From Lachnospiraceae bacterium (GTDB taxonomy: Bacteria; Bacillota; Clostridia; Lachnospirales; Lachnospiraceae), in assembly GCA_017436305.1 (NCBI GenBank), contig JAFSDJ010000087.1, positions 91,281 to 155,280 on the forward strand: a DNA stretch of 64,000 nt. Reading direction: 5' to 3'. Below, piece by piece: positions 3,859 to 24,663 of the stretch. The position numbers and the translations under genes were made by a program. The notes under the pieces were generated by a model that worked only from the letters and a program-made list of their open reading frames with translations, was not told the origin of the DNA and searched no databases. Every line of letters begins with the position of its first letter. The stretch's first letter is position 1.

Positions 3859-3862
3859 GGAT

Positions 3863-4095
3863 GATGCCGGGGGCAAATAGCCCTGTTCACAATTTCAAAT
3901 AGTCAATTTGTACAATCCATTCTTTTAAGCTCCGCAATGCTAAACATTTCAGTAAGCTTCTAAACATTGATTATGTCAGCGAAAGCTTCCATAATCAATA
4001 GAGTCTTACTTTCATAGCATAAAGTCACTTTCAAGAACAGATTGTACAAATTGACTATATAGTAACCTTCAAAAGGGCTATTTGTTCCTGGCATC
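3863..4095 (+). repeat. Palindromic structured element, copy 1 (with an extra outer stem)
   Basis: A large imperfect inverted repeat. The outermost arms 3863-3884 and 4074-4095 match at 19 of 22 positions. The next arms 3899-3917 and 4040-4058 are a perfect 19-bp pair. Inside is a core (3937-4020) with stems ATGCT/AGCAT, AGTAAG/CTTACT and ATTGATTAT/ATAATCAAT, and the apical loop TCAGCGAAAGCTTC. The core corresponds to copies at 17241-17325 and 24542-24626. The right arm ends one or two bases before the Shine-Dalgarno of the LytTR gene. The function is unknown; it could be a leader RNA or a mobile palindrome. Confidence 0.85.
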
Positions 4096-4109
4096 TAAGG
4101 ATAAAAAGT

Positions 4110-4547
4110 ATGAAAATAAGAATAGAAGATATAGGACCTAATGAAGAGGAAGAACTGATTCTTCGCTGTAGAAATCTGGACGACAACTTAATGCAGCTTA
4201 TTTATGGTGTAAAAATGAAAACACGGAAAATAAGCGGAAGTAAGGATGGCTCTATTACCATGATTCATCCGAAGGATATTTATTATTTTGAAGCAGTGGA
4301 TAATAAGGTTTTTATGTATTTAAGCAAAGATGTTTATGAAACAAAAAGAAAGCTCTATGAAATTGAAAAGGAATTTGAAGGAACGGATTTTTTCAGGGCA
4401 TCTAAGTCCGTTATTTTAAATATTTCCAAGATTAAAAGTCTGGCAGCCGTTTTTAACGGGCGGTTTGAAGCAACTTTATTAAATGGGGAAAAGGTAATTA
4501 TTTCCAGACAATACATGGGAACTTTGAAAAATAAGCTGGGAATTTAA
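4110..4547 (+). CDS. LytTR-domain DNA-binding regulator
   Basis: A 145-residue protein. Residues about 45-145 are a LytTR DNA-binding domain (HPKDIYYFEAVDNKVFMYL, then FFRASKSVILNISKI and ISRQYMGTLKNKL). It lacks a response-regulator receiver domain. The next gene encodes a DUF3021 membrane protein. This pairing is the arrangement of LytTR regulatory systems such as HdrRM and BrsRM of Streptococcus mutans, where the membrane protein restrains the regulator. The neighbouring exporter is the obvious candidate target. SD AAGGA (4098-4102) abuts the right arm of the palindromic element, so folding of that element could affect its translation (inference). Confidence 0.88.
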   Translation: MKIRIEDIGPNEEEELILRCRNLDDNLMQLIYGVKMKTRKISGSKDGSITMIHPKDIYYFEAVDNKVFMYLSKDVYETKRKLYEIEKEFEGTDFFRASKSVILNISKIKSLAAVFNGRFEATLLNGEKVIISRQYMGTLKNKLGI

Positions 4548-4557
4548 GGAGGAGCAT

Positions 4558-5007
4558 ATGAAAAGAGTAAAGGAGCTGCTTTTGACTTTTGCATTGGTTA
4601 CAACAGGAGTGTTGCTTGCAGCAGCTATATTTATGACCATTTTCTGGCAGGGGGAGAAGGTGACAGGAGCCATCTTGTGGCAGATTTTGAGTGTGGCAGC
4701 ACTTTGCAGTCTGGGTAATTTTATCTGGCCGGAGCGGGAAGTATCAAAAAAAGAATGGATTGTAAGGGAATTTATTCATTATTTTTATGTATGTGTCGTA
4801 GTTTTAGGTTGTGGCAGCAGATTTGAATGGTTTTATTGGAGTAATCCCAGAATGGTTCTTCTTATGTTGCTAGCTATCCTTATGATATTTGTAGTAGTCA
4901 TGTTTGTGATGATGCAAATGGATAAAAAGACTGAGAGGCAGTTAAATGAGCGACTTGAGAGTTTCAGGTTAGAGAGAGAAGAAGCGGAGAAAGAGGCGCA
5001 AGAATAA
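4558..5007 (+). CDS. DUF3021 membrane protein, likely partner of the LytTR regulator
   Basis: A 149-residue protein with four hydrophobic segments at about residues 7-27, 37-56, 73-88 and 99-119, followed by a charged C-terminal coiled-coil tail. This is the DUF3021 layout. It starts 10 bases after the LytTR gene with SD AAGGAGGAG. In characterised LytTR systems this partner sits in the membrane and inhibits the regulator until a signal relieves it; applying that here is inference. Confidence 0.82.
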   Translation: MKRVKELLLTFALVTTGVLLAAAIFMTIFWQGEKVTGAILWQILSVAALCSLGNFIWPEREVSKKEWIVREFIHYFYVCVVVLGCGSRFEWFYWSNPRMVLLMLLAILMIFVVVMFVMMQMDKKTERQLNERLESFRLEREEAEKEAQE

Positions 5008-5050
5008 GATACAGAACGTTATGTGCGTAATAAGGGAGGTGTATTATGAT

Positions 5051-6394
5051 ATGAACTACTGCAAGCTTCAGATAGGCTGCATGCTGATTATCCTGTATAT
5101 GGTATTTATCTACATAAAGGAATGCAGGAGACTGCGGCATAAGCATAAATGGTCTGTGTTTGACAGACTGTTGGGAGTGGGAATATTAGAGCTTTTATTT
5201 GATGGGCTGACAGCCTATACGGTAAATCATTTGGAAAGTGTAGACAGCACGGTGAATATGGTGCTGCATCTGTTTTTTTTGTTAAGTCTTGATCTTTTTA
5301 TTTTCCTGCTGTTCCTTTATATGATTTCCATCACAACCGGGTTACCGAAAAGAAGAAACAGGAGAATGCTTCTGTACAGCATGTTTCTGGTAAATGCCGC
5401 TCTGGTAGTGTGGAATATACCAAAACTGGAATATCGAAAAGGCCAGCTGAGCAACTACTCAATGGGAATTTCCGTATATATCTGTTTTGTGATGGTTGCA
5501 GTATATAGCATGCTTGGTATTTTTATCTTTTTCAGACGCTGGAGATATATAGAGGGGCATAAAAGAATTAGTATTTTTACCTACTTATCCGTGCTTGTCT
5601 GTGTTACCGGATACCAGATGTGTTATCCGCAATCCTTGATTAGTAGCATAGGCGTGACTATTATTATGGTGGGAACGTTTGTAAATCAGGAGAATCCTTC
5701 TGCGGTGGAACTTTCCTGGTATCACCATGAAATGATTATGGGCTTTGCTACACTGGTGGAGAACAAGGATGGTAGTACAGGTGGTCATATCCGGCGAACC
5801 ACCATGTATGTAAAGCTTCTTGCTGAGGAGTTGCGGCGCAGGGGCTATTACAAAGAAGTGCTGACAAAGGATTATATGAAAAATCTGTGTTTGGCTGCGC
5901 CCATGCATGACATTGGGAAGATAGCTGTGCCTGATGTAATTCTGCAAAAGCCCGGAAAGCTGACGGAAGAAGAATATGAAGCTATGAAGCTTCATGCAGC
6001 TAAAGGCGGAGAGATTGTCCTTGAAACCTTCGGACATTTAGGAAACGAACAATATGCGCAGATGGCATATGAGGTGGCACGTTTTCATCACGAAAAATGG
6101 GCCGGAGGAGGCTATCCGGATGGGTTAAAAGGGAAAGAGATTCCTCTGTGTGCAAGAATCATGGCAATTGCGGATGTATTTGATGCAGTATCGGAGAAAC
6201 GGTGCTACAGGGAAGCACTCCCTTTGGAGCAGTGTTTTGAGATTATTATGAAGGGAAGCGGCACAGATTTTGACCCGGTTCTGGTAGAGGTATTTTTGGA
6301 AAGTAAGGAAAAAGTGGTGCAGGTTCACGAGGAAGCCAGTAAAAATGGAAAAAGAGAAGGAAAGTCATCAGTTGTGAAATCCCCATGTAATTAA
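5051..6394 (+). CDS. Membrane HD-GYP domain protein, probable cyclic-di-GMP phosphodiesterase
   Basis: A 447-residue protein. The first 220 residues hold about seven membrane helices, like the sensor part of 7TM receptor proteins. The remainder is an HD-GYP domain with HD at residues 286-287 (MHDIGKIAVPD), the HHEKWxGGGYPDGLKG stretch with GYP at 354-356, and IADVFDAV. Such domains hydrolyse c-di-GMP or related nucleotides. The reading frame stays open upstream to 5021, but the SD AAGGGAGGTG (5033-5042) favours 5051. It lies 43 bases after the DUF3021 gene and may be in the same transcript. Confidence 0.87.
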   Translation: MNYCKLQIGCMLIILYMVFIYIKECRRLRHKHKWSVFDRLLGVGILELLFDGLTAYTVNHLESVDSTVNMVLHLFFLLSLDLFIFLLFLYMISITTGLPKRRNRRMLLYSMFLVNAALVVWNIPKLEYRKGQLSNYSMGISVYICFVMVAVYSMLGIFIFFRRWRYIEGHKRISIFTYLSVLVCVTGYQMCYPQSLISSIGVTIIMVGTFVNQENPSAVELSWYHHEMIMGFATLVENKDGSTGGHIRRTTMYVKLLAEELRRRGYYKEVLTKDYMKNLCLAAPMHDIGKIAVPDVILQKPGKLTEEEYEAMKLHAAKGGEIVLETFGHLGNEQYAQMAYEVARFHHEKWAGGGYPDGLKGKEIPLCARIMAIADVFDAVSEKRCYREALPLEQCFEIIMKGSGTDFDPVLVEVFLESKEKVVQVHEEASKNGKREGKSSVVKSPCN

Positions 6395-6536
6395 GGGATG
6401 TAGAGGCAGCAAAAGAGGAAGAAATAGAAAAGCTCCTATATGGGTTACGGAAAAAGAGCATATGTTCTTTTTTGAATAAAAATATTATGATAAAGAAGAA
6501 ATTATTTGGATAGTACAGAGTGTTACATTTGAAAAG

Positions 6537-6565
6537 GAAGCCTTAAAAAAAGGCTTCTTTTTTTA
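6537..6565 (+). terminator. Rho-independent terminator after the HD-GYP gene
   Basis: GAAGCCTT (6537-6544) pairs with AAGGCTTC (6550-6557) around an A5 loop, followed by T8. Confidence 0.92.
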
Positions 6566-6579
6566 TCTCTCCCTTTTAT

Positions 6580-6780
6580 TGAGTCTGTTTTTTGTCTGAA
6601 TCTCACAGTATTTCTTTAGAGCCTTTTTTAATCTATGTCCAGATTGCTTTTTAGGTTAATATCCAGTTTTTTTCAGCCTTTTTTTGCTGTTCGCCAGTCC
6701 GTTTTTTTAGCTGCTTTTTAGACTGTTTTTCAGGCTGTTTTTTAGGCTGTTTTTTTAGGCTGTTTTTTTAGGCCATTTTC
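6580..6780. repeat. Degenerate T-rich tandem array
   Basis: Runs of five to eight T alternate with a short 'aggctg' or 'cagtc'-like spacer. The clearest units are four consecutive 13-14-bp repeats of AGGCTGTTTTTT(T) at about 6731-6772; upstream units are diverged. It could be a slippage-prone remnant or repeated terminator-like tracts. No coding capacity is apparent. Confidence 0.6.
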
Positions 6781-7500
6781 CTTGTTTTTTTTGGCTATTT
6801 TTGGTTTTCTTGTATTCAATAACATTACAACTAATAATGAAAGTAACTAAAAAATAAAATGAAAATAATAAAAACAAATAGTTCACTACATACATAAAAG
6901 TAACTAATAAAATTTTCTTAAAATAGTTCACATAACAAAAGTTTACATAAAAATAAAAAGCGTACGTTATACAAAAATAAAATAACAAGTTAAACACAAG
7001 ATATTGTGCTATGAAGTCAATTTATAACAATATTATGTAAAAATAAGAACCACAAAAAAGATAAAATTATATTTAGAATTAACAAATATGTTTTGCGAAT
7101 AGTTATAAAAATTCCAGGAAAAATAATTGAAGAAAATCTTTTTTAAAATAAATAAAATAACAGCATTCTAATCGTATTTTTTGGGGTTCATTTGTTATTA
7201 TCCTAAAAGGATAGCAGTAGTTACCTAATTCAATGACTAAACTAGTCAATAGAAGTAAAGGCCAACATATAGATTGAATAACACATGAAAACACAAGATG
7301 TAGTGTACATAAAATGGCAAAATTTTGAAGATTATGTGTAAACCAAGAAAAAAGTCAGTAATTTAGTAAAAAAAAGAAATACTACAAGATATTGTGCTTA
7401 AATGTTATGACAACCACCATATAAAGAATAAAAACGCGTGATATGAAAAAATAAGTAACTGTTTAGCAAGTTACAAAACACTTGCTGTTTTGTTGCGTAT
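6781..7500. other. Gene-free AT-rich region
   Basis: About 700 bases of very AT-rich sequence with stops in all frames at short intervals. Short open frames here lack Shine-Dalgarno sequences and have low-complexity translations. The hairpin AGCAAGT/ACTTGCT sits at about 7461-7482. I see no gene. Confidence 0.6.
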
Positions 7501-7557
7501 GAACGTGATTTGGGTGTGTGCAGGCTTCTTTTGCGTAGCAAAACTTTAAATGAGCCT

Positions 7558-7610
7558 ACGAATTGTTATTGTTTATGAGGTACGAGTGAACAGTAATGAG
7601 CTGTTATCAA
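7558..7610 (+). repeat. Short palindromic repeat, copy 1 of 2
   Basis: The stem TTGTTATTGTT (7563-7573) pairs with AACAGTAATGA (7589-7599), using G-T pairs, around the loop TATGAGGTACGAGTG. The same unit with a perfect stem occurs at 28281-28317. The preceding 25 bases (ACTTTAAATGAGCCTACGAA) also resemble those before the second copy. Confidence 0.75.
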
Positions 7611-7636
7611 AATATAGAAAAATACTTCCATTTTGG

Positions 7637-7665
7637 TTGAAAAAGCAAGGAAAAATTTGTATACT
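7637..7665 (+). promoter_or_regulatory. Sigma-A promoter of purL
   Basis: The -35 box TTGAAA (7637-7642) is followed by a 17-base spacer and the -10 box TATACT (7660-7665). The expected start is near 7672, leaving a leader of about 67 bases before the purL ATG. Confidence 0.8.
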
Positions 7666-7738
7666 GTAAAATAGATGTGCTCTTATTAAAGAAGGGTACC
7701 TTTAGCAATGGAAAACAACAAACAACGGAGGATTCATC

Positions 7739-10700
7739 ATGGCTAACGTGAAACGTATCTATGTAGAAAAGAAAGAGGATTTTGCTGTTAAGGCAAAAGA
7801 ACTAAAAGAAGAAGTAACAAGTTATCTTGGAATAACTGGAATTTCTAAAGTAAGAGTGTTTATCCGTTATGATGTGGAAAACATTTCAGAGGAAGTTTTT
7901 GAAAAGGCTTGCAAGACAGTATTTAGTGAGCCACCGGTAGACATTTTATTCCATGAAAACTTTGACATGGCTGAAGGAGCAAAGGTGTTCAGCGTAGAAT
8001 ATTTACCGGGACAGTTTGACCAGAGAGCCGATTCCGCAGTACAGTGCGTTAAGTTCTTAAAGGAAGACGAAGATCCGATTATTAAGACTGCTGTTACCTA
8101 TGTATTTGAAGGAAACATTAGTGATGAAGAATTTGAAAAAATAAAAGCATACTGTATTAACCCTGTAGACAGCAGAGAAACAGATATGGTAAAACCGGAA
8201 ACTTTAGTAACAGAGTTTGAGGAGCCGGCGGATGTACTTATTTTTGATGGTTTTAAGGATATGAAAGAGACAGACCTTAAAAAGCTTTACGATTCCTTAG
8301 GACTTGCCATGACATTTAAGGATTTCTTACATATTCAGAATTACTTCAAAAATGAAGAAAAAAGAAATCCATCCATGACAGAAATTCGTGTGTTAGATAC
8401 TTACTGGTCTGACCACTGCCGTCATACGACTTTTTCAACAGAGCTTAAAAATGTAGAATTTGCAGAAGGCTACTACAAAGAACCTATTGTAAAAACCTAT
8501 AAAAATTACTTAGAGACAAGAGAAGAAATTTTTAAGGGCAGAGATGACAAGTTTGTTTGTCTCATGGATTTAGCTTTAATGGCAATGAGAAAGCTGAAAA
8601 AAGAAGGCAAGCTTCAGGATTTGGAAGAATCTGATGAAATCAATGCTTGTTCTATTGTAGTTCCGGTAGAAATTGATGGAAAAGAAGAAGAATGGCTCGT
8701 ATTTTTCAAAAATGAAACACACAACCATCCAACAGAAATTGAACCTTTCGGTGGCGCGGCTACCTGCTTAGGCGGTGCTATCCGAGATCCACTTTCAGGT
8801 AGAGGTTATGTATATCAGGCAATGCGTGTAACCGGTGCAGCAGATCCAACTGTACCTGTAGAAAATACATTGAAAGGAAAATTATCCCAAAAGAAGTTAG
8901 TACGTGGTGCAGCTGACGGATATTCTTCCTATGGTAATCAGATTGGACTGGCTACAGGCTTCGTAAAAGAGCTTTACCATCCGGATTATGTAGCAAAAAG
9001 AATGGAAATTGGTGCTGTTATGGGTGCAGCTCCAAGAAAAAATGTTATTAGAGAAACTTCTGATCCGGGAGATATTATCATTCTTTTAGGCGGAAGAACA
9101 GGCCGTGACGGTTGCGGTGGCGCAACAGGTTCTTCCAAAGTCCACACAGAAGCTTCCATTGAAACCTGTGGTGCAGAAGTTCAAAAAGGTAATGCTCCAA
9201 CAGAACGTAAGATTCAGAGATTGTTCAGAAGAGAAGAAGTTAGTAAGCTTATTAAAAAATGTAATGACTTTGGTGCAGGTGGTGTTTCCGTTGCTATCGG
9301 AGAGTTGGCAGACGGTCTTATCGTAGATTTGGACAAGGTACCAAAGAAATATGCAGGACTTGATGGTACAGAATTAGCCATTTCTGAATCTCAGGAAAGA
9401 ATGGCTGTAGTGGTAGATAAAAAGGATGTTTCACAGTTTTTAACTTATGCAGCAGAAGAAAACTTAGAAGCTGTTTCTGTTGCAGAAGTAACAGAGTCTC
9501 CAAGATTAATTTTAAAATGGAGAGGAAAAGAAATTGTAAATATTAAAAGAGCATTCTTAGATACAAACGGTGCACATCAGGAAACTGACGTAAAAGTAGA
9601 TATTCCTTCAAAAGAAGATAATTATTTTGCAAAACATGCTCTTTCCAAAGTAGAAGAGGCAGTAAAAGCAGGGGATGCCAAGAAAGCCTGGTTAGAAACT
9701 GTAAATGACTTAAACGTATGTAGCCAGAAGGGATTAGTTGAAATGTTTGACTCTTCCATTGGTGCAGCAAGCGTTTATATGCCATATGGTGGAAAATATC
9801 AACTTACTGAAACACAGACTATGGTTGCCAAGCTTCCGGTATTAAAAGGAAATACAGACGTTGTAACTATGATGAGCTTTGGATTTGACCCATATTTATC
9901 AAGCTGGAGCCCATATCATGGAGCAGTTTATGCGGTACTGGAATCAATGTCTAAAATTGTGGCAGCTGGTGGAGATTATAAAAAAATCCGCTTTACCTTC
10001 CAGGAATATTTCAGACGTATGACAGAGGATGCAAGCCGTTGGAGCCAGCCATTTGCAGCACTTCTTGGTGCGTATGATGCGCAGATGGGATTTGGTCTTC
10101 CAAGTATAGGTGGAAAGGACAGTATGTCAGGAACCTTTAATGACATCGATGTACCACCGACACTTGTGTCATTTGCAGTAGATACAGGAAAATATCAGGA
10201 AGTTATCACACCTGAATTTAAACAAAGCGGTAACGCAGTTGTAAAATTAGAAATTCCAAAGAATGCTTATGATTTGCCGGATTATGAAAAAGCAATGGAA
10301 GTATTTGAAGAAGTTCATAGATTGATTGTAGAAAAGACAGTAATGTCAGCTTATGCATTAGATTCAAAAGGTATTGCTGCTTCTGTAAGCAAGATGGCAT
10401 TTGGTAACAAATTAGGATTTGAAGCAGAAGAAAGTCTTTCCTTAGAAGAATTGTTTAAAAATGAGTTAGGTAACTTAATTATAGAAATTGCTCCTGATAA
10501 AGTAGCAGAAATCAAAGTGTCTTATATTGTTGTAGGTAAGGTAACAGAAAGTGGCTTTACCTATAAGGATACAACTGTTTCCACAGAGGATGTATTAAAG
10601 GCTTGGAGTGAGAAGCTTGAAAAAGTATTCCCAACAAAGGCTGTAAAAGATGCGACTAAGGTTGAAACAAAACTTTATGACACTAATAACATTTATGTAT

Positions 10701-15307: not shown

Positions 15308-17158
15308 CTACAGATGTACAGAAATTCTATATTTCTTTAACCAGAAATCTATCTGCAAAAGATAAGCAATCATCTGTGGTCCTGCCATAAGCTGACCGTA
15401 CCAGGGAGCACCATAGTCCTTTGGATTATGAAGAAAGGTCCGGACATTTTTCTCATCTAATATGGAAAGAAGTGGACTGTTTCCATCTAAAACAGCAACC
15501 AGTCTTTCTATAAGCAGTTTTTCATAGGAAGGGTTATACGTTTTGGGGTAGGGACTTTTTTTACGATACAAAATCTCCTGCGGCAGTAAGTGTTCACTGG
15601 ACTGGCGTAGGAGATTTTTTACTACACCGTCTTTTGCCTTCATTTCCCATGGAACGTTAAAAACATAAGAAACCAGTTCTTTATCAGCAAAAGGAACTCT
15701 GGCTTCTAAGCCTGAATTCATGCTGGTTCTATCCATGCGGTTTAAAAGTGTCTGCATAAAATAACGAATATTTAAATAGGCTATCTGACGTCTGTTGGAC
15801 TCTGTATGATTATCCGTTGGCAGAATATCAATTTCACTAATGGAATGATAATAAGCATTTTGGACGTAATCTTCCATTTGAAGTGTATCTAGAACTTCTT
15901 TTTTCAAAAGTGACTGTCTGGGAGTTAGAGAAGGTGTCCAGGGAAAGGTGTCACTTTCTAAAAACTCTGGTTTGTGAAACCAGGGATAACCGCCAAATAC
16001 CTCGTCTGCACATTCTCCGGTTAAGACAACCTTGTGGGTTTTTGCCACCTCTCCACAAAAATAAAGAAGCGAGGAATCAATATCAGCCATGCAGGGAAGA
16101 TCATGAGCAATCACAGAGGAAAGGAGCAAATCTGCCTGAGTTTTACTGTCACATTCCAAATAATGGTGCTTAGAATCTAAATATTCTACCATTTTATCTA
16201 CATAAGGACGGTCTTCAGAGGGCTGAAAAGCATTGGCTTTAAAATAGTCATGGTTATTTGTAAAATCAAAGGAAAAGGTATGAAGCTTTTCACCATGCTT
16301 TTTTAATTCCCGGGCTGCAACACTGGAAACAAGGCTGGAATCTACTCCACCGGATAAAAAGGTGCATACAGGTACATCGGATACCAGTTGCTTTTTAATG
16401 GCGTTTTCTATCAAATAGGAAGTTTTCTCTAAGGTTTTTTCATAATTGTCCTCATGTGGCTTACTTTCCAAACGAAAATACACAGTTTCTTTAACACCAT
16501 ATTTATTGATTGTAAGATAGCAACCTGGCTTTACCTCTTTCATACCTAGAAAAATGCCGTTTCCAACAGATCTGGCAGGTCCTAAACCGAAAATTTCATT
16601 GATTCCGTTTTTATCAAGAATGGCACGAATACCAGGAAAAGTAAAAATTGCTTTCAGTTCTGAGCCAAAAAGCAAAGTACCATTGTGAACTGTGTAAAAT
16701 AAAGGTTTAACACCAAAAAAATCACGGAATAAATAGCAGGTTTCATGAATCTCATCATAAATGGCAAAGGAAAAAATTCCGTTTAATTTATTTACAAAAG
16801 AAGCACCATATTCTAAAAATCCTGTTAAAATGACTTCGGTGTCAGATGTGGTAGAAAATTTATGTCCTCTGTCAGAAAGTTCTTTTTTAAGTTCTTTATA
16901 ATTATAAATTTCCCCGTTGTATACAATGTGACATTTGGCGCCCTGATATTCTTTTGTCATAGGCTGACTTCCTGTTTCCAAATCGATGATGGAAAGCCGG
17001 CTGTGAGTAAGTCCACAGGTATTGCTTAAAAAAATGCCGTTACCGTCAGGTCCTCTATGGGTAATGGTATGGTTCATCTTTTGTAAAATATACTTATAGT
17101 CAGCTTCTTTTGATAGGAAAGAAGCCCTAGGGTCAAAAAAACCGGATATTCCGCACAT
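15308..17158 (-). CDS. asnB: Asparagine synthase, glutamine-hydrolysing
   Basis: A 616-residue enzyme converting aspartate, glutamine and ATP to asparagine. The class II glutaminase domain starts at MCGISGFFDP with nucleophile Cys2, then HRGPDGNG, RLSIIDL and YNGEIYNYKEL. The synthetase domain has the PP-loop SGGVDSS at 269-275 and later LTGECADEVFGGY. The start is fixed by Cys2 and by AGGAGA just upstream. The frame continues 52 codons further upstream through the palindromic repeat at 17206-17362, which is not coding here. It is transcribed from the strand opposite to its dpaB neighbour, with which it converges. Confidence 0.96.
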   Translation of the reverse strand: MCGISGFFDPRASFLSKEADYKYILQKMNHTITHRGPDGNGIFLSNTCGLTHSRLSIIDLETGSQPMTKEYQGAKCHIVYNGEIYNYKELKKELSDRGHKFSTTSDTEVILTGFLEYGASFVNKLNGIFSFAIYDEIHETCYLFRDFFGVKPLFYTVHNGTLLFGSELKAIFTFPGIRAILDKNGINEIFGLGPARSVGNGIFLGMKEVKPGCYLTINKYGVKETVYFRLESKPHEDNYEKTLEKTSYLIENAIKKQLVSDVPVCTFLSGGVDSSLVSSVAARELKKHGEKLHTFSFDFTNNHDYFKANAFQPSEDRPYVDKMVEYLDSKHHYLECDSKTQADLLLSSVIAHDLPCMADIDSSLLYFCGEVAKTHKVVLTGECADEVFGGYPWFHKPEFLESDTFPWTPSLTPRQSLLKKEVLDTLQMEDYVQNAYYHSISEIDILPTDNHTESNRRQIAYLNIRYFMQTLLNRMDRTSMNSGLEARVPFADKELVSYVFNVPWEMKAKDGVVKNLLRQSSEHLLPQEILYRKKSPYPKTYNPSYEKLLIERLVAVLDGNSPLLSILDEKNVRTFLHNPKDYGAPWYGQLMAGPQMIAYLLQIDFWLKKYRISVHL

Positions 17159-17205
17159 AATGTTCTCCTTTTCATTATATTGAATGATCATCTGGTAGGT
17201 CGTGA

Positions 17206-17362
17206 GAATATTCGATAGTTTTTTCTGTGCCAGACCGGATATGCCGGACATTCCAATGAGCCTTAGAACAAAGAATTGTGTCAGCAACGGCTTCCACAAT
17301 TCTTTAAGTCTCATTTACATGGCATATAATGGTCTGGCACAGAAGGAACTATCGGAATATTC
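17206..17362 (+). repeat. Palindromic structured element, copy 2
   Basis: A 157-bp imperfect palindrome. The outer arms 17206-17236 and 17331-17362 pair over about 31 bp, with one bulge and two T-G positions on the + strand; their sequence (for example TTCTGTGCCAGACC) is unrelated to the arms of the other copies. The 85-nt core 17241-17325 has stems ATGCC/GGCAT, AATGAG/CTCATT and AGAATTGTG/CACAATTCT, and the loop TCAGCAACGGCTTC. The core is nearly identical to copy 3. It lies 48 bases before the asnB start but in the opposite orientation to that gene. Confidence 0.9.
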
Positions 17363-17383
17363 CCCACTACGTTTACGAGTTCA

Positions 17384-17415
17384 GTAATTAGCCTGAGACC
17401 GGTAATTAGCCTGAG
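17384..17415. repeat. Direct repeat upstream of asnB
   Basis: The 14-mer GTAATTAGCCTGAG occurs at 17384-17397 and again at 17402-17415, 18 bp apart. It may be a regulator site or a small duplication. Confidence 0.6.
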
Positions 17416-17515
17416 CCCAGATACCTTATAGTATATGAAGATAGGGCGGAGAAAATGCGTGAGCAGTGGGGCTGGGTATGAAAAGGATAAGTAAAAGTAG
17501 TTGTTTGAACAATTT

Positions 17516-18628: not shown

Positions 18629-19175
18629 TGCTAATGCCCCTTTCTTTTAATGCAGCTTCTAATTTGGATTTGCCACGATACAAAATGTTTTTTACCTTCC
18701 CGGATGTGCAGCCTGTGCGTGCAGCAATTTTTGCTATGGGCTCCAAATAGAAATAACGAAGAATAAAAATTGTCCGATCCGGTTCCTTCATGGCTTCCAA
18801 TGTATGATGAAGAATGGTTTCGGTGGACTTTTTTATAAAGTCATTTTCAATATCTATATGGGAAGTGAGGTTAATCTCTTCTATAGGAATGGGAAAAGAC
18901 CGTCCTTGCTTTCTAAGTATATCAATACAAGTGTTGCGGGCTATGGAATAAATATAGCTTTTTAGGCTGTGACCTTTATCCGGCTTAAAATGGTGGGAGT
19001 TTTGCCATAGTTTAATAAAGGTATCCGCAATGGCTTCTTCCAAATCCTGTTCAGGCAGATTTATCAGAAAATTTTTGCAGATTGTTTCCACCCCACCGCC
19101 GTAAAGGTCAAGGGCGGCTTTAATGCCTGCTTCTGCATCGCTTTGTAATAGTTGTAATAAGGTTTTGTCGTCCAA
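18621..19175 (-). CDS. ECF-type RNA polymerase sigma factor
   Basis: A 184-residue sigma-70 family protein. Region 2 is around residues 25-92 (IADTFIKLW, then SYIYSIARNTCIDILRK). Region 4 is around 120-178 (FILRYFYLEPIAKIAARTG, then KNILYRGKSKLEAAL). The start is TTG, with SD GGAGG eight bases before it. It heads a two-gene unit with its probable anti-sigma factor. An inverted repeat ACCTATACGTAGGT at 19204-19217 lies just upstream and could be part of its promoter or operator. Confidence 0.87.
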   Translation of the reverse strand: MDDKTLLQLLQSDAEAGIKAALDLYGGGVETICKNFLINLPEQDLEEAIADTFIKLWQNSHHFKPDKGHSLKSYIYSIARNTCIDILRKQGRSFPIPIEEINLTSHIDIENDFIKKSTETILHHTLEAMKEPDRTIFILRYFYLEPIAKIAARTGCTSGKVKNILYRGKSKLEAALKERGISNE

Positions 19176-19203
19176 TGTATGGGCCTCCTATGTGTTTCTA
19201 TAT

Positions 19204-19217
19204 ACCTATACGTAGGT
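19204..19217. promoter_or_regulatory. Inverted repeat upstream of the sigma factor gene
   Basis: ACCTA-TACG-TAGGT lies about 30 bases before the sigma gene start. It is a candidate operator or part of an autoregulated ECF promoter; there is only sequence symmetry to support this. Confidence 0.35.
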
Positions 19218-19301
19218 TTTCTTTAAATGGCTCAGGGAAATTTCAGTTATTTTTGGGTTAGGTTTATAATAGCATATAAGGGGAAGGGAAAGAAAATATA
19301 T

Positions 19302-19330
19302 TTGACATATAAGAACCGGACCTTTATAAT
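19302..19330 (+). promoter_or_regulatory. Consensus sigma-A promoter
   Basis: TTGACA (19302-19307), a 17-base spacer, then TATAAT (19325-19330), a perfect consensus pair. The predicted start is about 30 bases before the small exporter gene. Confidence 0.92.
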
Positions 19331-19366
19331 CGTCTGATAGTGAAAGAAAAAAGAGAGGTAAATTTG

Positions 19367-19843
19367 ATGTTAAAGAAATATTTGATAGTATTTTTTATTT
19401 CTATGGTGCCATTAATTGAGCTTCGTGGAGCCATTCCTTATGCAGTAGCGTTTGGACTTCCTACATTGCAGTCCTATATTATAGCTGTTTTAGGAAATAT
19501 GCTACCGGTTCCGATTATTTATTTATTTGCAAGAAAAGTTTTAGAATGGGGTGCTGATAAACCTGTGATTGGTAAGTTCTTCACATTCTGCCTGGAGAAA
19601 GGTAAAAAAGGCGGAGAAAAGTTGCAGGCAAAAGCAGGAAAGGGTCTTTTTCTGGCTCTTTTCCTTTTCGTAGGAATTCCGCTTCCGGGAACAGGCGCAT
19701 GGACAGGTACATTGGCAGCAAGTCTTTTGGATATGGACTTTAAGTCCAGTATTTTAGCTGTTATGTGCGGCGTTATTTTAGCAGGTATCATTATGGGTGT
19801 TGCCAGTGCAGGTCTGTTTGGTGCCTTAGGGGCATTTTTTTAG
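19367..19843 (+). CDS. Small multidrug export family membrane protein
   Basis: A 158-residue protein of the putative small multi-drug export family (PF06695 type). It has about four to five hydrophobic segments, with the family features PLIELRGAIPYAVAFGLP near the N-terminus, NMLPVPIIYLFARKVLEW, and FVGIPLPGTGAWTGTLAA. The start at 19367 follows AGAGAGG; the upstream GTG at 19340 is unlikely. It is a single gene with a strong promoter and terminator. The substrate is unknown and the family name is historical. Confidence 0.85.
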   Translation: MLKKYLIVFFISMVPLIELRGAIPYAVAFGLPTLQSYIIAVLGNMLPVPIIYLFARKVLEWGADKPVIGKFFTFCLEKGKKGGEKLQAKAGKGLFLALFLFVGIPLPGTGAWTGTLAASLLDMDFKSSILAVMCGVILAGIIMGVASAGLFGALGAFF

Positions 19844-19889
19844 AAATGCATATTCCAAAATGAACGTGTGAAAATAGACGTAAAATAGA

Positions 19890-19936
19890 AATACCCCATA
19901 GATCAGAGGCAGATCTGACTTATGGGGATTTTTTTA
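19890..19936. terminator. Bidirectional terminator
   Basis: ATACCCCATA (19891-19900) pairs with TATGGGGAT (19921-19929), with inner TCAG/CTGA pairing, then seven T. It serves the exporter and probably the convergent VOC gene. Confidence 0.88.
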
Positions 19937-20317
19937 TACAGTTATCTCAATCATGTTACCTTCAGCATCTAAAATACAGCTTTCATAGTAACCGTCTCCG
20001 GTTGTCCTTGGACCGCTTATTACAGTATATCCGTGAGCTTTTAGTCTGTCTGTAAGCGCGTCTACTTCTTCCTTGCTTCCTACATTAAATGCCAAATGAA
20101 TAAAGCCCCAGCTTACAGGAGACTTTTCGTGCTCGCTTAGTTCCGGTTTCGTCATGATTTCCAGTCTTGTATGATCGTCAAAGCTAAGAAAATAGCTTTC
20201 AAACCCGGTAGTTTTATTGTGATATTTTTCGTTGGAAACGGCATTAAAATAAGTTTCAAAAAACGTTTTTGCCCTTTCTAAATCTTTTACATATAATGCT
20301 GCGTGGTCAATTGTCAT
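19934..20317 (-). CDS. Glyoxalase / VOC-family protein
   Basis: A 127-residue single VOC domain starting MTIDHAALYVKDLERAKTFFETYF. The candidate metal residues are His5, the Glu in LEIMTKPEL, the His in GFIHLAFNV, and the Glu near the C-terminus in GNMIEI. These match the pattern of glyoxalase I and related metal-dependent lyases or dioxygenases. The substrate cannot be told. The frame is open further upstream, but SD GGAGG supports 20317. Confidence 0.87.
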   Translation of the reverse strand: MTIDHAALYVKDLERAKTFFETYFNAVSNEKYHNKTTGFESYFLSFDDHTRLEIMTKPELSEHEKSPVSWGFIHLAFNVGSKEEVDALTDRLKAHGYTVISGPRTTGDGYYESCILDAEGNMIEITV

Positions 20318-20474
20318 AAAAGCCTCCAATGCTAAATTTATATATCCAAACCTACCATAATGATAAAAAATTAGCAAGTATTATACTTTTTAAACAGATA
20401 TTATTTTACCATTTGAAAAAAGTGGATTTTTGTGAAAAATGCAAAAAAAATCTGAAATATGTATTAAAAATTTG

Positions 20475-20503
20475 TTTACAAATACATAAAGAAAAGCTAT
20501 AAT
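20475..20503 (+). promoter_or_regulatory. Promoter of the Ig-like exported protein
   Basis: TTTACA (20475-20480), a 17-base spacer, then TATAAT (20498-20503). The predicted start is about 28 bases before the ATG. Confidence 0.82.
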
Positions 20504-20537
20504 TAAAATATCATTTTTTTATAGGAGGTAAGGGGAC

Positions 20538-21617
20538 ATGAAGAAAACTATGAAAATCCGGTTGGCTGTATTTCTTTCTATTTTATTGGTACTTCCAACC
20601 ATCGTAGCTGCATTACCAATGGCTTCCACAGAAGCGCTGGCAGCAGGAAATGATGTTAGCATGTATTGGAATTGGGATGTGGCAAGCCATCCTACTATTG
20701 AGGTAGAAGCGGGTCAGCAGTTCTATTTAGGAGACTATGCAATTTTAAATGTCTATGGAAAAAAACCTTGGTATGGAAGGGTTTCCTTAGTAAAAGCAAC
20801 TTACACATCCAGTAAGAAGGCTGTGGCAACTGTAAACAAAAGTGGATATTTTACAGCAAAGAAAACAGGAACTACTACAGTTACTGTAAAATATAAAAGT
20901 AAAAAGATAACTACTAAAATTAAGGTAGTGCCAAAAGGAACATTTGCTACTTCCGAGAATATTTCCGGTTTACAAAAAAAAGCAGAAGCACTTAGCAAGC
21001 AGATTCCTAAAAAGATTACCACAAAGAATGGATTTGCACTTTATAAAGTGGTAAGTGACTATCAGAAATATACAGACGAGGTCAATGACATTGGTGTAGA
21101 GGGCTTTTTGAAGGAAGCGGTTACAGCTTACGGCGGTTCAACTTATTACAAGAACACAGCCCAGCTTGCAGTTCCACAGGCAGGACGTTATGCAGCTTTA
21201 AATGCAATGCTTTCTAATTATGGATGGGAGAACAATCCAACAGGTACAAAAGGTGCAAAGCTTTTCAAGATTAAATCCGTATCTGCAACGAAAAGTTCTA
21301 TCGTGATTAAATTGAAAAAGAAAATTGATACAGTACAAGTTTTAGCAACACGAATTAATGGTTACAATCTTGGAAATGAAGAATTATCAGGAAATACAAA
21401 GGCATATGCCGGTGTATATGTATATGATAAGAAAACCCATGAAAGTTTCCGTTGCAAGGCAGAAGTAAAGAAAGGTAGCAATACTTTAAAGCTTATTCCG
21501 ATGAAGTATTCTCCACAAAAGGGAGAATGGGTAAAGACCACACTGAAAAAGGGTCATACATACGTTTTAGAAACTAAGGATTACTGGACAAAAGGAAAAA
21601 CCGTAAAAGTAAAATAA
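20538..21617 (+). CDS. Exported protein with a bacterial Ig-like (Big_2) domain
   Basis: A 359-residue protein with a signal peptide (about 1-36: basic start, hydrophobic core, cleavage after an Ala-rich stretch). A Big_2-like domain lies around residues 48-133 (KAVATVNKSGYFTAKKTGTTTVTVKY). The C-terminal 220 residues have no domain I can name but are rich in Lys and aromatic residues. There is no LPXTG or transmembrane anchor, so it is probably secreted or held non-covalently. SD AGGAGG precedes the start. A larger Big_2 protein lies at 40446-42005. Confidence 0.82.
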   Translation: MKKTMKIRLAVFLSILLVLPTIVAALPMASTEALAAGNDVSMYWNWDVASHPTIEVEAGQQFYLGDYAILNVYGKKPWYGRVSLVKATYTSSKKAVATVNKSGYFTAKKTGTTTVTVKYKSKKITTKIKVVPKGTFATSENISGLQKKAEALSKQIPKKITTKNGFALYKVVSDYQKYTDEVNDIGVEGFLKEAVTAYGGSTYYKNTAQLAVPQAGRYAALNAMLSNYGWENNPTGTKGAKLFKIKSVSATKSSIVIKLKKKIDTVQVLATRINGYNLGNEELSGNTKAYAGVYVYDKKTHESFRCKAEVKKGSNTLKLIPMKYSPQKGEWVKTTLKKGHTYVLETKDYWTKGKTVKVK

Positions 21618-21623
21618 AATAGC

Positions 21624-21658
21624 AAAAATGCTCTGTCAGAACTGGCAGAGCATTTTTT
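21624..21658 (+). terminator. Terminator directly abutting the next Shine-Dalgarno
   Basis: AAATGCTCTG pairs with CAGAGCATTT (21646-21655), then T6. The T run is followed at once by GGAGG of the next gene. Confidence 0.88.
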
Positions 21659-21668
21659 GGAGGTTATT

Positions 21669-23486
21669 ATGAAGAAGAAACAGAAGGTAAGGCAAAATAC
21701 AAAGCAAACCGCAAATCAGACTGAAAATCAGGGAATGTGGGATTTGTTGTTGCCGGTCTTGATGATTATTATCGTGTTGCCTTGGATAATACATCTGGCA
21801 GTATATAGTTGTGGCTACGCAGATTATGACTGGTATGCAATGGATGATTCATTAGCTGATTTTTATTGCTATTATAAAAGTTATTTTTTGGACATTATTG
21901 GATTTTTTGCTGCTATAGTACTGGCATTTCGCATGAATTTTTATAAAGAGAAAAATAAAGCCATGAAGGTTTACATTCCTTTGGTTATATATGGTTTTTC
22001 TGTGATTTTGTCTACTATATTTTCCATAAATTCTCAGGCATCCATCCAGGGTAATTTTGAGTCCTTTGAAAGTTGCTTTGTTTTACTTTCTTATATTATA
22101 TTGTCTGTGTATGCTTATCAGATTATGGAATATGAAAGAGATTACAAAATTATCTGGTTTGCTCTTTTGGGAATTAGTATTGCATTTTCCGTAATAGGAT
22201 TGTTACAGGTTTTTGGTTACGATTTTATGGATTTTCAATGGGTGCAAAAGCTGATTATGTCCAAGGAGGCTTTTGAAATGTATGGAGGAGAGTTAGAGGA
22301 TACTTTTTCAAAGGGAAGAGTATATCTGACTTTGTATAATCCTAACTATGCAGCAATTGTACTGGCAATGCTTTTTACAGTGGTGTTTATTATGTGCCTT
22401 ACTGAGAGGACAAAACGGAAAAAAACAGGCTATGGGCTGCTGGCAGCAGTGCTTCTTGTATTAATCTGGTATACCTACTCCAGAGCTTCCCTGTTGGCCG
22501 TTGTGGCAGTTCTTTGCTATGTGGTTTTTTTACAGTGTAAATCCGATAGAATGAAAATTACCGGAAAGTGGATGGCAGCAGCCGGTCTTTCAATTGTATT
22601 AATAATTGGTATTTTTGTGGCTTTAGATTATCAGGCTGATTTTAAATATTTATCCCGTATTGTAGAAGAAAATAACAGAGAACCATTAGAAAATCTTACA
22701 ACAGAAAAAGATGGCATACATATTACTTATGATGGCAATGAGTATTTGCTTTGGATGGACGGGGAAACGTTATTTTATAAAAATGAAAGCACAGAAGAAA
22801 TAGTTAATGCTCTTAAAGGAGAAGAAATGGCTCTGACTATGGAAGAAGGGGCAAAAGCAATCTACATGAATGGAGAAGAGCCTGTCATTATGATGTATCT
22901 TGCAGACACTACCTTACATTTTGTGAAGCAGGACAATGACTATTTCTATCAGACAGTAGCCGGAAAAATAACAAAAATGACAGAAGTGCCGGCAGCAGAT
23001 TTTCATGGTTTGGAATATTTAGGCTCTGCCAGAGGATATATTTGGTCCAGAGTGCTCCCTCTTTTAAAAGATTATATTTTTATAGGTAGCGGACCGGATA
23101 CATTTGCGGAAGTATTTCCACAACATGACTATGCAGGAAAAATTGTTTATTCAGACCAGCCGGATATGGTTATGGAAAAAGCCCATAATGATTATCTGAC
23201 AAAATGGGTTCAGACAGGAATGATTTCCGTAATTTGCATTGTAGTATTTTATTTTGCTTTGTTCTGGCAGGGAAAAGCAGTTTTTATGAAAAAAGAGAAA
23301 ATAGAAAGCATGCAAAGCAGAATCGGATATGGATGCTACTTTGCATGCCTGGTTTACATAATTGCGAGTCTGGCTAATGATTCAACACTTCAGACAGCGC
23401 CGTTATTCTGGGTATTTGCAGGAATTGCATTTTCCTGTATTAAAAAATCTAAAAATGCTTCTAAGCCCTCTACAATGTCATCATAA
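21669..23486 (+). CDS. O-antigen ligase (WaaL/Wzy-C)-like polytopic membrane protein
   Basis: A 605-residue protein with about 12 hydrophobic segments. A long extracytoplasmic insert lies at about residues 335-460, rich in acidic residues, before IWSRVLPLLKDYIFIGSGPDTFAEVFPQHD. That motif, the following 'KAHNDYLTKWVQTG' stretch and the terminal helices are characteristic of the O-antigen ligase domain (Wzy_C), whose members transfer glycans to lipid or protein acceptors. The start at 21669 follows GGAGG. Its 3' end overlaps the convergent phosphatase gene by about 97 bases. It is not adjacent to the capsule locus and its acceptor is unknown. Confidence 0.85.
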   Translation: MKKKQKVRQNTKQTANQTENQGMWDLLLPVLMIIIVLPWIIHLAVYSCGYADYDWYAMDDSLADFYCYYKSYFLDIIGFFAAIVLAFRMNFYKEKNKAMKVYIPLVIYGFSVILSTIFSINSQASIQGNFESFESCFVLLSYIILSVYAYQIMEYERDYKIIWFALLGISIAFSVIGLLQVFGYDFMDFQWVQKLIMSKEAFEMYGGELEDTFSKGRVYLTLYNPNYAAIVLAMLFTVVFIMCLTERTKRKKTGYGLLAAVLLVLIWYTYSRASLLAVVAVLCYVVFLQCKSDRMKITGKWMAAAGLSIVLIIGIFVALDYQADFKYLSRIVEENNREPLENLTTEKDGIHITYDGNEYLLWMDGETLFYKNESTEEIVNALKGEEMALTMEEGAKAIYMNGEEPVIMMYLADTTLHFVKQDNDYFYQTVAGKITKMTEVPAADFHGLEYLGSARGYIWSRVLPLLKDYIFIGSGPDTFAEVFPQHDYAGKIVYSDQPDMVMEKAHNDYLTKWVQTGMISVICIVVFYFALFWQGKAVFMKKEKIESMQSRIGYGCYFACLVYIIASLANDSTLQTAPLFWVFAGIAFSCIKKSKNASKPSTMSS

Positions 23487-23884
23487 GTAACATCAAAATT
23501 TCCAGTAAACCAGGGGTCAGCAATGTCCCTTGGGTTATCGGAAAAATCCAAAAGCCGGTGCATTTTTTCTTTAGGATCTCCCCCTGTGATACGTAACATA
23601 TTGGAAAGGTTTCTTTCTTCCATTCCCAGCAAATAGTCATAATCTGTATAGTCTTTCTTAGTAAGCTTTCTGGCATATTTGCCGGCAGTAGAAATGCCGT
23701 ACTGCATCAATTTATTTCTTGTTCCATGATGAACCGGATTGCCGGTTTCTTCTGAGCTTGTGGCAGCAGAGGCAATGTAAAATTCATGTTCCAAGCCTCT
23801 TTTTTTGACCATGTCTTTCATAACAAATTCCGCCATTGGGGAACGACAGATGTTGCCAAGGCAGACGAATAATACTCTAATCAT
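23390..23884 (-). CDS. Low-molecular-weight protein tyrosine phosphatase
   Basis: A 164-residue protein with the P-loop CLGNICRS (Cys8, Arg14) at the N-terminus and the catalytic Asp123 in ADPWF. These are the complete signature of LMW-PTP enzymes, which dephosphorylate phosphotyrosine. In other bacteria they often reverse capsule BY-kinase phosphorylation. Here the only visible BY-kinase is CpsD at 43716, some 20 kb away, so the link is inference. The gene overlaps the convergent ligase-like gene at its 3' end. Confidence 0.93.
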   Translation of the reverse strand: MIRVLFVCLGNICRSPMAEFVMKDMVKKRGLEHEFYIASAATSSEETGNPVHHGTRNKLMQYGISTAGKYARKLTKKDYTDYDYLLGMEERNLSNMLRITGGDPKEKMHRLLDFSDNPRDIADPWFTGNFDVTYDDIVEGLEAFLDFLIQENAIPANTQNNGAV

Positions 23885-24018
23885 ATTTCTAAATCCCTTT
23901 CAAACTTAATAGTATTTTCATTACAGCAAAGTAAACCGGTTACTTCACATAGATATTCTATTATAATAACCTGAAAATCTCAAGTTAATCTTGTAATTCA
24001 CCTTTTATATAAAACCTG

Positions 24019-24046
24019 TTGACAAATAATAAATATAGGATATAAT
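24019..24046 (+). promoter_or_regulatory. Promoter of the ArsR/CadC-like gene
   Basis: TTGACA (24019-24024), a 16-base spacer, then TATAAT (24041-24046). Confidence 0.88.
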
Positions 24047-24047
24047 G

Positions 24048-24072
24048 AACATATGAACAAATACTCATGTGA
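24048..24072 (+). promoter_or_regulatory. Candidate ArsR/SmtB-family operator
   Basis: An imperfect inverted repeat of the type ATATGAACAAATACTCATGT lies just after the -10 box. This matches the location and form of CadC/CzrA/SmtB operators (a TGAA/TTCA-like dyad with an AT centre). Binding here would block transcription start. Confidence 0.6.
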
Positions 24073-24126
24073 AAAAATGTAACCGGACACTTATGAAAAG
24101 TTACAAGAGAATAGGAGGTATCCCGG

Positions 24127-24477
24127 ATGTCAGAGGAAAAATGCGATTGTACTTTTGTTCACGAAGACATTGTAGCTAAGGTAAATGAAAAAATGCCTGA
24201 CGAAGAAACATTATATGACTTAGCAGACTTTTTTAAAGTATTTGGAGATTCTACAAGAATTAAAATTCTTTATGTGCTGCTTTGTTCGGAGATGTGCGTG
24301 TGTGACATTGCCCAGATTTTAGGTATGACTCAGTCAGCAATTTCCCATCAGCTTAGAATGTTAAGGCAGATGGATTTAGTACGTACCAGAAGAGATGGAA
24401 AAACGGTTTATTATTCTTTATCAGATGGACATATTTTCAATATATTAAGCCAGGGCATGGAGCATATAGAGGAATAA
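24127..24477 (+). CDS. ArsR/SmtB-family metal-sensing repressor, CadC-like
   Basis: A 116-residue winged-helix repressor. An N-terminal Cys pair (Cys6, Cys8) and the alpha-3 motif SEMCVCDIAQIL (Cys57, Cys59, Asp60) match the Cd/Pb site of CadC proteins. A C-terminal DGHIFNILSQGMEHIEE segment could supply the alpha-5 Zn-type site. The recognition helix is in MTQSAISHQLRMLR. Metal binding releases such repressors from the operator. It precedes the small HMA protein and the P1B ATPase, separated from them by palindromic element copy 3. Confidence 0.92.
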   Translation: MSEEKCDCTFVHEDIVAKVNEKMPDEETLYDLADFFKVFGDSTRIKILYVLLCSEMCVCDIAQILGMTQSAISHQLRMLRQMDLVRTRRDGKTVYYSLSDGHIFNILSQGMEHIEE

Positions 24478-24505
24478 AGGTAATTGGTGATGAGGGAGAT
24501 TGTGA

Positions 24506-24663
24506 GAAGTTTCCCATAGGGTATTTAGTGCAAGACTAGATATGCTGAACATTCCAATGAGCCTTTGGGCAAAGAATTGTGTCAGTAAGGGCTTCCACAA
24601 TTCTTAAAGTCTCATTTCCATAGCATATAATAGTCGTGCACTAAATACCCTATGGGAATCTTC
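24506..24663 (+). repeat. Palindromic structured element, copy 3
   Basis: A 158-bp imperfect palindrome. Arms 24506-24538 and 24631-24663 pair over about 33 bp with two mismatches; part of the left arm reads CCCATAGGGTATTTAGTGCA. The 85-nt core 24542-24626 has stems ATGCT/AGCAT, AATGAG/CTCATT and AGAATTGTG/CACAATTCT, and the loop TCAGTAAGGGCTTC. It sits between the repressor gene and the HMA gene. It could act as an attenuator between them or be a mobile insertion. Confidence 0.9.

Follow-up and report, generated by a model that had tools for sequence, protein, structure and literature searches.

Mobile palindromes of Lachnospiraceae carry a core hairpin whose strong covariation is probably of DNA origin

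Three long hairpins in the genome of a Lachnospiraceae bacterium are members of a MITE-like family, whose short, non-autonomous mobile DNA elements are palindromic over most of their length. Our preferred explanation, to which we assign a probability of about 0.68, is that these palindromes contain a core hairpin covarying by Watson-Crick pairs, are moved in trans, and have their arms homogenised via fold-back copying. The analysed stretch (the window) comprises 64,000 nt of Lachnospiraceae bacterium GCA_017436305.1 (contig JAFSDJ010000087.1, positions 91,281-155,280, forward strand) and contains the following features.

3856..3862, no strand: left target-site duplication TAAGGAT of copy 1; the empty orthologous site of G306 has a single AAGGAT
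3863..4095, + strand: the entire 233-bp insertion of copy 1 (W1), with the ends GATGCCGGGGG... and ...GGCATC; its outer inverted repeat folds
3899..4058, + strand: long hairpin of copy 1, located and folded, as in the original prediction
3935..4022, + strand: conserved core hairpin of copy 1 (alignment A2)
3976..3989, + strand: 14-nt apical loop of copy 1, TCAGCGAAAGCTTC; equivalents at 17281-17294 (copy 2) and 24582-24595 (copy 3)
4096..4102, no strand: right target-site duplication TAAGGAT of copy 1
17206..17362, + strand: hairpin of copy 2, which has arms of its own and lies upstream of an asparagine synthase gene (MCGI start at 17158)
17239..17327, + strand: conserved core hairpin of copy 2 (alignment A2)
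24506..24663, + strand: hairpin of copy 3 with its own arms, located and folded; neighbours are an arsR-type regulator ORF (24127-24477) on one side and a P-type ATPase ORF (25072-26964) on the other
24540..24628, + strand: conserved core hairpin of copy 3 (alignment A2)

With some 16-32 nt of flanking sequence included per side, the folds of copies 1, 2 and 3 had minimum free energies of −64.9, −87.3 and −83.6 kcal/mol, with z-scores of −9.8, −10.7 and −9.9, and none of 200 shuffles folded as well. The palindromes of the original prediction are thus real and lie at the positions it gave. The apical loop (TCAG..CTTC) that it called conserved is exact in all three copies, starting at 3976, 17281 and 24582. 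A shared core with a hairpin was also found, but alignment A2 gives it a length of about 88-89 nt instead of 84-85 nt. Comparing copy 1 with copies 2 and 3, two of the six pairs in the middle stem changed on both sides, as claimed, whereas in the apical stem this was the case for four of ten pairs and not for seven of nine. Copy 1 is indeed a hairpin, but the element is longer than described and fills 3863-4095 between the two TAAGGAT repeats.

The assignment to MITE-like elements is based on target duplications, one empty site and multiple intergenic copies. W1 is short (233 bp), lacks a transposase gene of its own and has terminal inverted repeats flanked on both sides by TAAGGAT, while the orthologous site in the same-genus genome G306 does not contain the element; this empty site is a single locus, for which one of four fetched relatives was aligned. 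In G176, which belongs to another genus, the core lies inside a 286-bp element, again with terminal inverted repeats and no transposase gene. Abutting repeats of 11-16 bp flank seven of nine copies there and are exact in five of these seven; an eighth copy (L109) has a 9-bp, non-abutting repeat. The end motif occurs 72+68 times in G176 (at most one mismatch), compared with 0+1 for the reversed control, and element derivatives range from 55 to 335 bp. No clear target duplication was seen by eye in ten composite units of G299, and a script found none in the majority of copies from other genomes.

For one lineage, to which the 286-bp element of G176 belongs, the ends are shared with insertion sequences: elsewhere they also flank IS1182-like transposase genes. 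Exact TAGGYAATTGCGAAAC ends were found in 49 of 299 Lachnospiraceae genomes (control 0), and in the window's genome there were none. A core was found close to such an end (here its last 14 bases, at most one mismatch) in 15 of 19 end-bearing loci outside G176, counted by hand. Of 29 TAGGYAATTGCGAAAC-end loci that were fetched, eight were tested, and five have transposase ORFs just inside the end (L447, L466, L463, L460 and, weakly, L465); in L444, L450 and L453 the tested ORFs are host-type genes. The transposases score below the IS1182 family cut-off (NF033551, best 76.3 bits against 270), with PF05598 above its cut-off in three of nine proteins and PF01609 in one of nine. These IS1182-like insertion sequences share TAGGYAATTGCGAAAC ends with several core-bearing elements, but a transposase ORF is present at their loci, and a loose core pattern detected no core in any of the 29. 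Ends in common with an autonomous element were seen for the TAGGYAATTGCGAAAC lineage only: no autonomous element with the ends used in the window's genome was found, and no core-containing element with a gene was seen among the inspected G176 copies. The same core sits in backbones with different ends.

Several candidates for an autonomous copy were rejected. None was present between unpaired G176 ends in 20 regions, judged by end distances, and a 3-kb candidate in that genome (L185) had the look of a pair of small, separate elements. The ten G299 units measured only 565-749 bp (lengths only; two with one end guessed), and units with cores about 740 bp apart in the same genome are longer than these. 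At TIR-like ends without a nearby core (L293, L213 and L219), the adjoining ORFs contained no transposase by eye.

The family is larger than the three copies originally described. These copies are real, but the genome holds 14 matches spanning the core model, one of which (C69) gave no fold with an intact left arm; seven partial copies were examined in addition. The distribution across Lachnospiraceae is patchy: the family is present in 15 of 299 sampled genomes and also in many named Lachnospiraceae, while in a phylum sample of 398 genomes the only match was in the window's own genome, and viral contigs, plasmids and phages gave no match. Of 62 core centres, 57 are intergenic, compared with 548 of 3,900 random positions, and their orientation relative to neighbouring genes (++ 23, -- 13, -+ 13, +- 7) shows no clear preference.

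In the larger alignment, the covariation whose absence had been named as a refuting result was far beyond chance, which indicates that pairing is maintained. Double-changed cells numbered 880 (a count that retains antisense rows) compared with 227.8±23 in shuffles, and 0 of 500 shuffles reached this value. Pairs in 113 distinct cores are 97.4% Watson-Crick, and each of the nine counted apical pairs occurs in all four Watson-Crick states. A C·T mismatch is fixed in 112 of 113 cores on each side, and loop letters of the core are mostly 95-99% fixed, with two at 80-84%. These fixed unpaired positions suggest a DNA hairpin that is recognised.

The original prediction had left a folded RNA or a hairpin DNA open; pairing is maintained as it proposed, but the evidence favours DNA over RNA. 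In the model alignment, G·U was found in 12 and A·C in 17 of 2,536 core cells, counted without the 14 antisense rows of A3 and without five border pairs; including one of these (27/173, with G-T 40 and A-C 4) would give a higher G·U count. In contrast, a SAM riboswitch control from related genomes gave 21 G·U and one A·C at variable pairs (20 of 30 loci used; five dropped as truncated, five not taken), and seven tRNA calls gave 12 G·U and no A·C. Isolated core mismatches in 72 copies were A·C in 11 cases and G·U in one, a pattern that would also be expected from a minus-strand RNA, the wider set standing at 17 to 12; an RNA required in both directions would suppress G·U too. In the outer arms of the 72 copies, isolated mismatches were G·U 38, A·C 37 and transversion 49. 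Treating the element with MAFFT/RNAalifold yielded 75 G·U and 49 A·C at variable pairs in 110 sequences, and, for three subsets with 20 sequences each, G·U/A·C counts of 31/17, 11/10 and 1/4. Tolerance of G·U on one strand, which served as the test for a structured RNA, was not seen in the model alignment or the arms; the looser MAFFT treatment was mixed. The lack of a G·U preference, together with copy-specific and nearly perfect arms in several genomes, indicates that the covariation is probably of DNA origin, and the paired mutations look as if they arose at the DNA level and not from a folded RNA. Covariation is usually read as proof of a functional RNA, and here it is very strong yet probably derived from DNA. 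A simple test for other repeat-derived 'RNA' candidates is to count G·U against A·C in a strand-symmetric alignment.

The arms were originally said to be unrelated between copies. This holds in several genomes, where they are near the shuffled level, but not throughout the family: four other copies in the genome have the arms of copy 1, at 83-89% identity over 154-160 bp, and in the subfamily of copies 2 and 3 the arms have diverged yet are partly alignable. In six genomes, left arms of different copies had a mean similarity of 0.47-0.54 (shuffled 0.44-0.48), while the two arms within each copy matched at a mean of 0.80-0.99, a value somewhat inflated as arms were delimited by self-alignment. 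L146 was left out of the arm mismatch, similarity and difference counts, and L134, whose self-alignment spans two neighbouring convergent hairpins and not one, was kept. The values for G107 are 0.99 within copies, 0.54 between copies and 0.48 shuffled, and five copies there have arms of about 80-125 nt that are nearly perfectly paired and different in each; its three alignable pairs contain 35 double and two single differences. Alignable pairs, which are not independent, gave 306 single and 94 double differences in G176, and 62 and 15 in G000. We rejected the idea that the arms are inverted host flank, since at one G107 locus (L354) the match to relatives begins just outside the element, at query base 1672 with the palindrome at 1330-1650, so that at this one locus the right arm does not consist of native flank. 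Rebuilding of the arms at every transposition is not supported either: in G176 arm complementarity is only 0.75 although the copies are 0.93 identical to one another, so homogenisation does not occur at each transposition.

Arm complementarity is probably kept by inverted-repeat homogenisation through template switching. Copies would be moved in trans by the DDE transposase of a full insertion sequence, with an IS1182-like transposase proposed as the mover for the TAGGYAATTGCGAAAC-ended lineage only. A palindrome made single-stranded during replication or transposition could fold back on itself, and DNA synthesis on the hairpin, or hairpin repair, may then copy one arm onto the other, so that both sides would change together as the sequence drifts. 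Template switching has been described as a source of simultaneous compensatory changes, one stem arm being copied from the other, in PMC8794818. Some protein might recognise the folded core DNA, which would let the core mismatch and loops resist homogenisation. The family offers many natural replicates with which to gauge the speed of inverted-repeat homogenisation.

We consider it quite unlikely that the elements are a structured non-coding RNA or mRNA element dispersed by transposition, with covariation reflecting selection on the RNA fold. Very stable folds (z about −10), the strong covariation (880 vs 227.8±23) and conserved loop letters would fit this, and stable stem-loops in MITE transcripts are reported in PMC10969869; on the other hand, the G·U excess of the RNA controls is absent from the model alignment and the arms, copies are intergenic without clear gene orientation, and the five G107 copies have long, nearly perfect arms that differ from each other. 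Moreover, no Rfam family matched within the window at the gathering score, in line with the original prediction; at a relaxed threshold one copy matched TD-2 and a microRNA precursor, all below the gathering score, and these were rejected because long hairpins of many kinds score.

Pairing might also persist by selection instead of copying, if a structure-recognising enzyme used only well-folded single-stranded DNA, so that elements with unpaired arms ceased to spread. This unlikely alternative overlaps with our preferred explanation, the sole difference being the way in which pairing persists; the present data fit template switching and DNA-hairpin selection alike. Strict Watson-Crick pairing and a free stem sequence with fixed mismatch and loop bases agree with it, and attC sites follow the same logic (PMC2727003). 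It demands, however, that most pairs in long arms mutated twice independently, while G107 shows 35 double and two single differences and the G176 copies spread well with a complementarity of 0.75; integron integrase (TIGR02249) was above its cut-off in 0 of 12 genomes. Matches below this cut-off, in 12 of 12 genomes and 14 of 14 controls, are presumably other tyrosine recombinases. An ordinary MITE with a functionless core, its palindrome a by-product of formation and its conservation due to recent common origin, seems doubtful to us. The copies are short and numerous, with derivatives of 55-335 bp and ends common to an insertion sequence in one lineage, but between genera the unpaired core positions are mostly 95-99% fixed while the nine apical pairs vary fully, and one core occurs in backbones with different ends. 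As these rivals overlap with the fold-back explanation, their odds need not sum to one. More speculatively, the family may be coded by DNA shape: an undescribed Lachnospiraceae enzyme might read the folded core by its C·T mismatch, the CATTCC/TCCAT internal loop and the TCAG..CTTC apex, and the hairpin might prime its own copying. One arm could then be overwritten with a copy of its partner, in the manner of rolling-hairpin replication, and larger units would hold paired convergent hairpins.

Literature searches found nothing specific on the family or its letters, and no described family with such a layout, as originally stated. ERIC is an imperfect palindrome that folds over its length. Our elements resemble ERIC and other bacterial MITEs (PMC10969869) in being short, gene-free, intergenic and multi-copy, with terminal inverted repeats, target duplications and a predicted stable hairpin. 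They differ in where conservation lies, namely in an internal core whose mismatch and loops are fixed, in having arms that in several genomes are specific to each copy but still complementary to themselves, and in pairs that change between all four Watson-Crick states. With attC sites (PMC2727003) they share a palindrome of poor sequence conservation, fixed extrahelical or unpaired bases and, putatively, recognition as a folded hairpin, but here there are target duplications and IS-type ends, and the conserved letters lie inside the hairpin. Paired compensatory changes through arm copying, which we infer here, are also a feature of the template-switch hairpins in PMC8794818; those are in RNA genes, whereas ours are mobile palindromes with arms almost wholly replaced in some genomes. 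REP/REPIN sequences with RAYT are 20-40-bp palindromes with a GTAG or CGTC tag. Our elements are likewise dispersed intergenic palindromes, but in contrast to units of 20-40 bp (PMC3733652 and PMC3116915), the core measures about 88 nt, which sets the family apart by size, and whole core-bearing elements span 233 bp and more.

The palindromes predicted from sequence at 3899-4058, 17206-17362 and 24506-24663 (copies 1 to 3) were borne out, and all three folded much better than shuffled sequences. They have in common a central hairpin of about 88 nt, here called the core, which is flanked in each copy by self-complementary outer arms. The features are as follows.

3863-4095: whole element of copy 1, bounded on both sides by TAAGGAT
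Core, from the outside inward: outer stem; internal loop; middle stem with one C.T mismatch; variable apical stem; TCAG-6nt-CTTC closing

The family is one of palindromic MITE-like (non-autonomous mobile) elements and shows, in the genomes sampled, a patchy distribution among Lachnospiraceae. A DNA search of the genome that holds the window (2.6 Mb in 107 contigs) gave 24 matches to copy 1, antisense and partial ones included, and a covariance model of the core built from 13 copies gave 14 sense matches spanning the whole model. Half copies were also seen there (L031-L036, L039), and C91d (L032) seems to have an internal deletion that kept both ends, with an ATAAAAT repeat. The covariance model detected the core in 15 of the 299 genomes sampled from the family, own genome counted; since no more than 11 candidates per genome were scored, the copy numbers are minimum values. 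Of 398 genomes sampled across the phylum, the window's own was the single one to match. In named genomes, the core DNA pattern matched at 119 or more places. Among the 80 matches listed, most were Lachnospiraceae or its genera (Eisenbergiella tayi, Coprococcus comes, Roseburia, Hungatella), the other names being bacterium, Eubacteriales, Eubacterium and Clostridiaceae. One core copy was found on a metagenome-assembled contig labelled Alistipes (L278), possibly a mis-binned Lachnospiraceae contig. No match was obtained in the viral contigs searched with the core pattern or in the plasmids and phages searched with copy 2.

Counting ORFs of 120 aa or longer, core centres were intergenic in 57 of 62 cases, against 548 of 3,900 random positions. 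The genes neighbouring 56 cores were oriented, relative to the element, ++ in 23 cases, -- in 13, -+ in 13 and +- in 7. The asparagine synthase gene has its conserved MCGI start at 17158, and its longest ORF (15308-17314) begins within copy 2, at 17314.

Between copy 1 and copies 2 and 3, two of the six middle-stem pairs change on both sides, as originally predicted, whereas the seven of nine claimed for the apical stem proved too high, the count being four of ten. Covariation held in a larger set, 129 matches aligned to the model (127 of the rows distinct, with antisense ones kept): 880 cells with both-sided changes were counted compared to 227.8 in shuffles, none of 500 shuffles being as high, and the signal was lost when the pairing partner was slid along the alignment. 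All nine apical pairs counted show all four Watson-Crick states.

Selection on a one-strand RNA should favour G.U pairs. Of the 2,536 core pair cells that 113 distinct sense rows give at 23 inner pairs, 2,469 were Watson-Crick, 12 G.U, 17 A.C and 38 other. Isolated mismatches in the outer arms of 72 copies, counted strand-symmetrically with the left arm aligned to the reversed right arm, were G.U in 38 cases, A.C in 37 and transversions in 49. The controls gave 21 G.U and one A.C in variable pairs of SAM riboswitches (20 loci of related genomes), and 12 and none in seven tRNA calls from the fetched loci. Fisher tests of the element against the SAM control gave P values of 0.00007 (core) and 0.0003 (arms), which are rough since the rows are related. 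The core mismatch pattern leaves room for a minus-strand RNA as its source, with 11 A.C against one G.U among isolated core mismatches of 72 copies. A contrary result came from MAFFT realignment and RNAalifold folding of 110 sequences, in which variable pairs held 75 G.U and 49 A.C; three subsets of 20 gave 31/17, 11/10 and 1/4 under this treatment. We tentatively put this surplus down to a border pair (G-T 40) and misalignment. The covariation of these palindromic elements looks DNA-level.

The C.T mismatch is near-invariant (112 of 113 rows on each side), and T at core column 34 is found in 112 of 112. The unpaired loop letters CATTCC and TCCAT are mostly 95-99% fixed, with two positions at 80-84%; unpaired positions are the most fixed in the core, yet some paired middle-stem columns are equally fixed. 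Since homogenisation would erase a mismatch, its retention suggests selection for a recognised DNA hairpin. The analogy is with integron attC sites, which are recognised as DNA hairpins (PMC2727003). No integron integrase reached the cut-off in the 12 genomes searched. In many, but not all, copies (for instance C15 in L022), the unpaired stretches of the internal loop and apex contain a threefold direct repeat of TTCC.

In six genomes, left arms of different copies were on average 0.47-0.54 similar, near the 0.44-0.48 of shuffled sequences, whereas the two arms within each copy matched, again on average, at 0.80-0.99. Exceptions were G082 (0.71 between copies, 0.94 within) and G176 (0.93 between, 0.75 within). 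Palindromes with arms of about 80-125 nt are usually thought unstable in bacterial chromosomes. In G107, nearly perfect arms of this size (pair counts minus core) differ in each of five copies, and the loci (L150-L154, L352-L356) lie on a bacterial chromosome. Alignable G107 arms, from three pairs of copies, showed 35 double against two single differences; in G176 and G000, single differences outnumbered double. We infer that the arms, as inverted repeats, are homogenised over time and not at each jump, probably via template switching, a process described in PMC8794818.

Regarding mobility, the element of copy 1 is absent between the corresponding gene pair of the same-genus genome G306, which represents an empty site. 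In G176, the core lies inside a 286-bp unit whose ends read TAGGYAATTGCGAAAC. Seven of nine copies had abutting repeats of 11-16 bp, five of them exact, and an eighth had an ambiguous 9-bp repeat. The end motifs occurred 72 times forward and 68 times in reverse in this genome, where the reversed control occurred 0 times and once, and were shared by units of 55, 62, 131, 200 and 331-335 bp, the small ones without the inner hairpin part. Of the 299 family genomes, 49 contain the exact 16-bp end and none the control sequence; this end is absent from the window's genome, where elements end differently (GATTAGGG- or GATGCC-like).

Just inside the 16-bp end, an IS1182/IS5-like transposase ORF was present at five of eight loci tested, from 29 fetched. 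Of the Pfam models, PF05598 reached its cut-off in three and PF01609 in one. As the NCBIfam IS1182 model scored far short of its own cut-off, the transposases near TAGGTAATTGCGAAAC ends may form an undescribed subgroup. These ORFs lie about 150-190 bp inward of the TAGGTAATTGCGAAAC end (L447, L466, L465, L460, L463); those of L447 and L466, both cut by the locus end, are at least 450 aa long and 72% identical. Several genomes have the TAGGTAATTGCGAAAC end within 40-140 bp of the end of a contig, which is what assembly breakage at a longer repeated element would produce.

Outside G299, convergent core pairs about 200-540 bp apart occur in other genomes; a hand count there gave ten convergent, one tandem and no divergent pairs, not all independent. 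In G299, convergent core pairs lie within composite units bearing outer and inner inverted repeats, ten of which measured 565-749 bp, others being longer; the inner repeat gave 70 matches, with 40 of 87 candidates scored. At L211, L231, L244, L260, L275 and L224, these high-copy units carry a pair of convergent hairpins together with inner inverted repeats; their outer ends are unlike each other, and there is no clear target duplication. Mini-hairpins of about 30-45 bp, with little beyond the two end motifs, were seen at L213 (4018) and L219 (5956).
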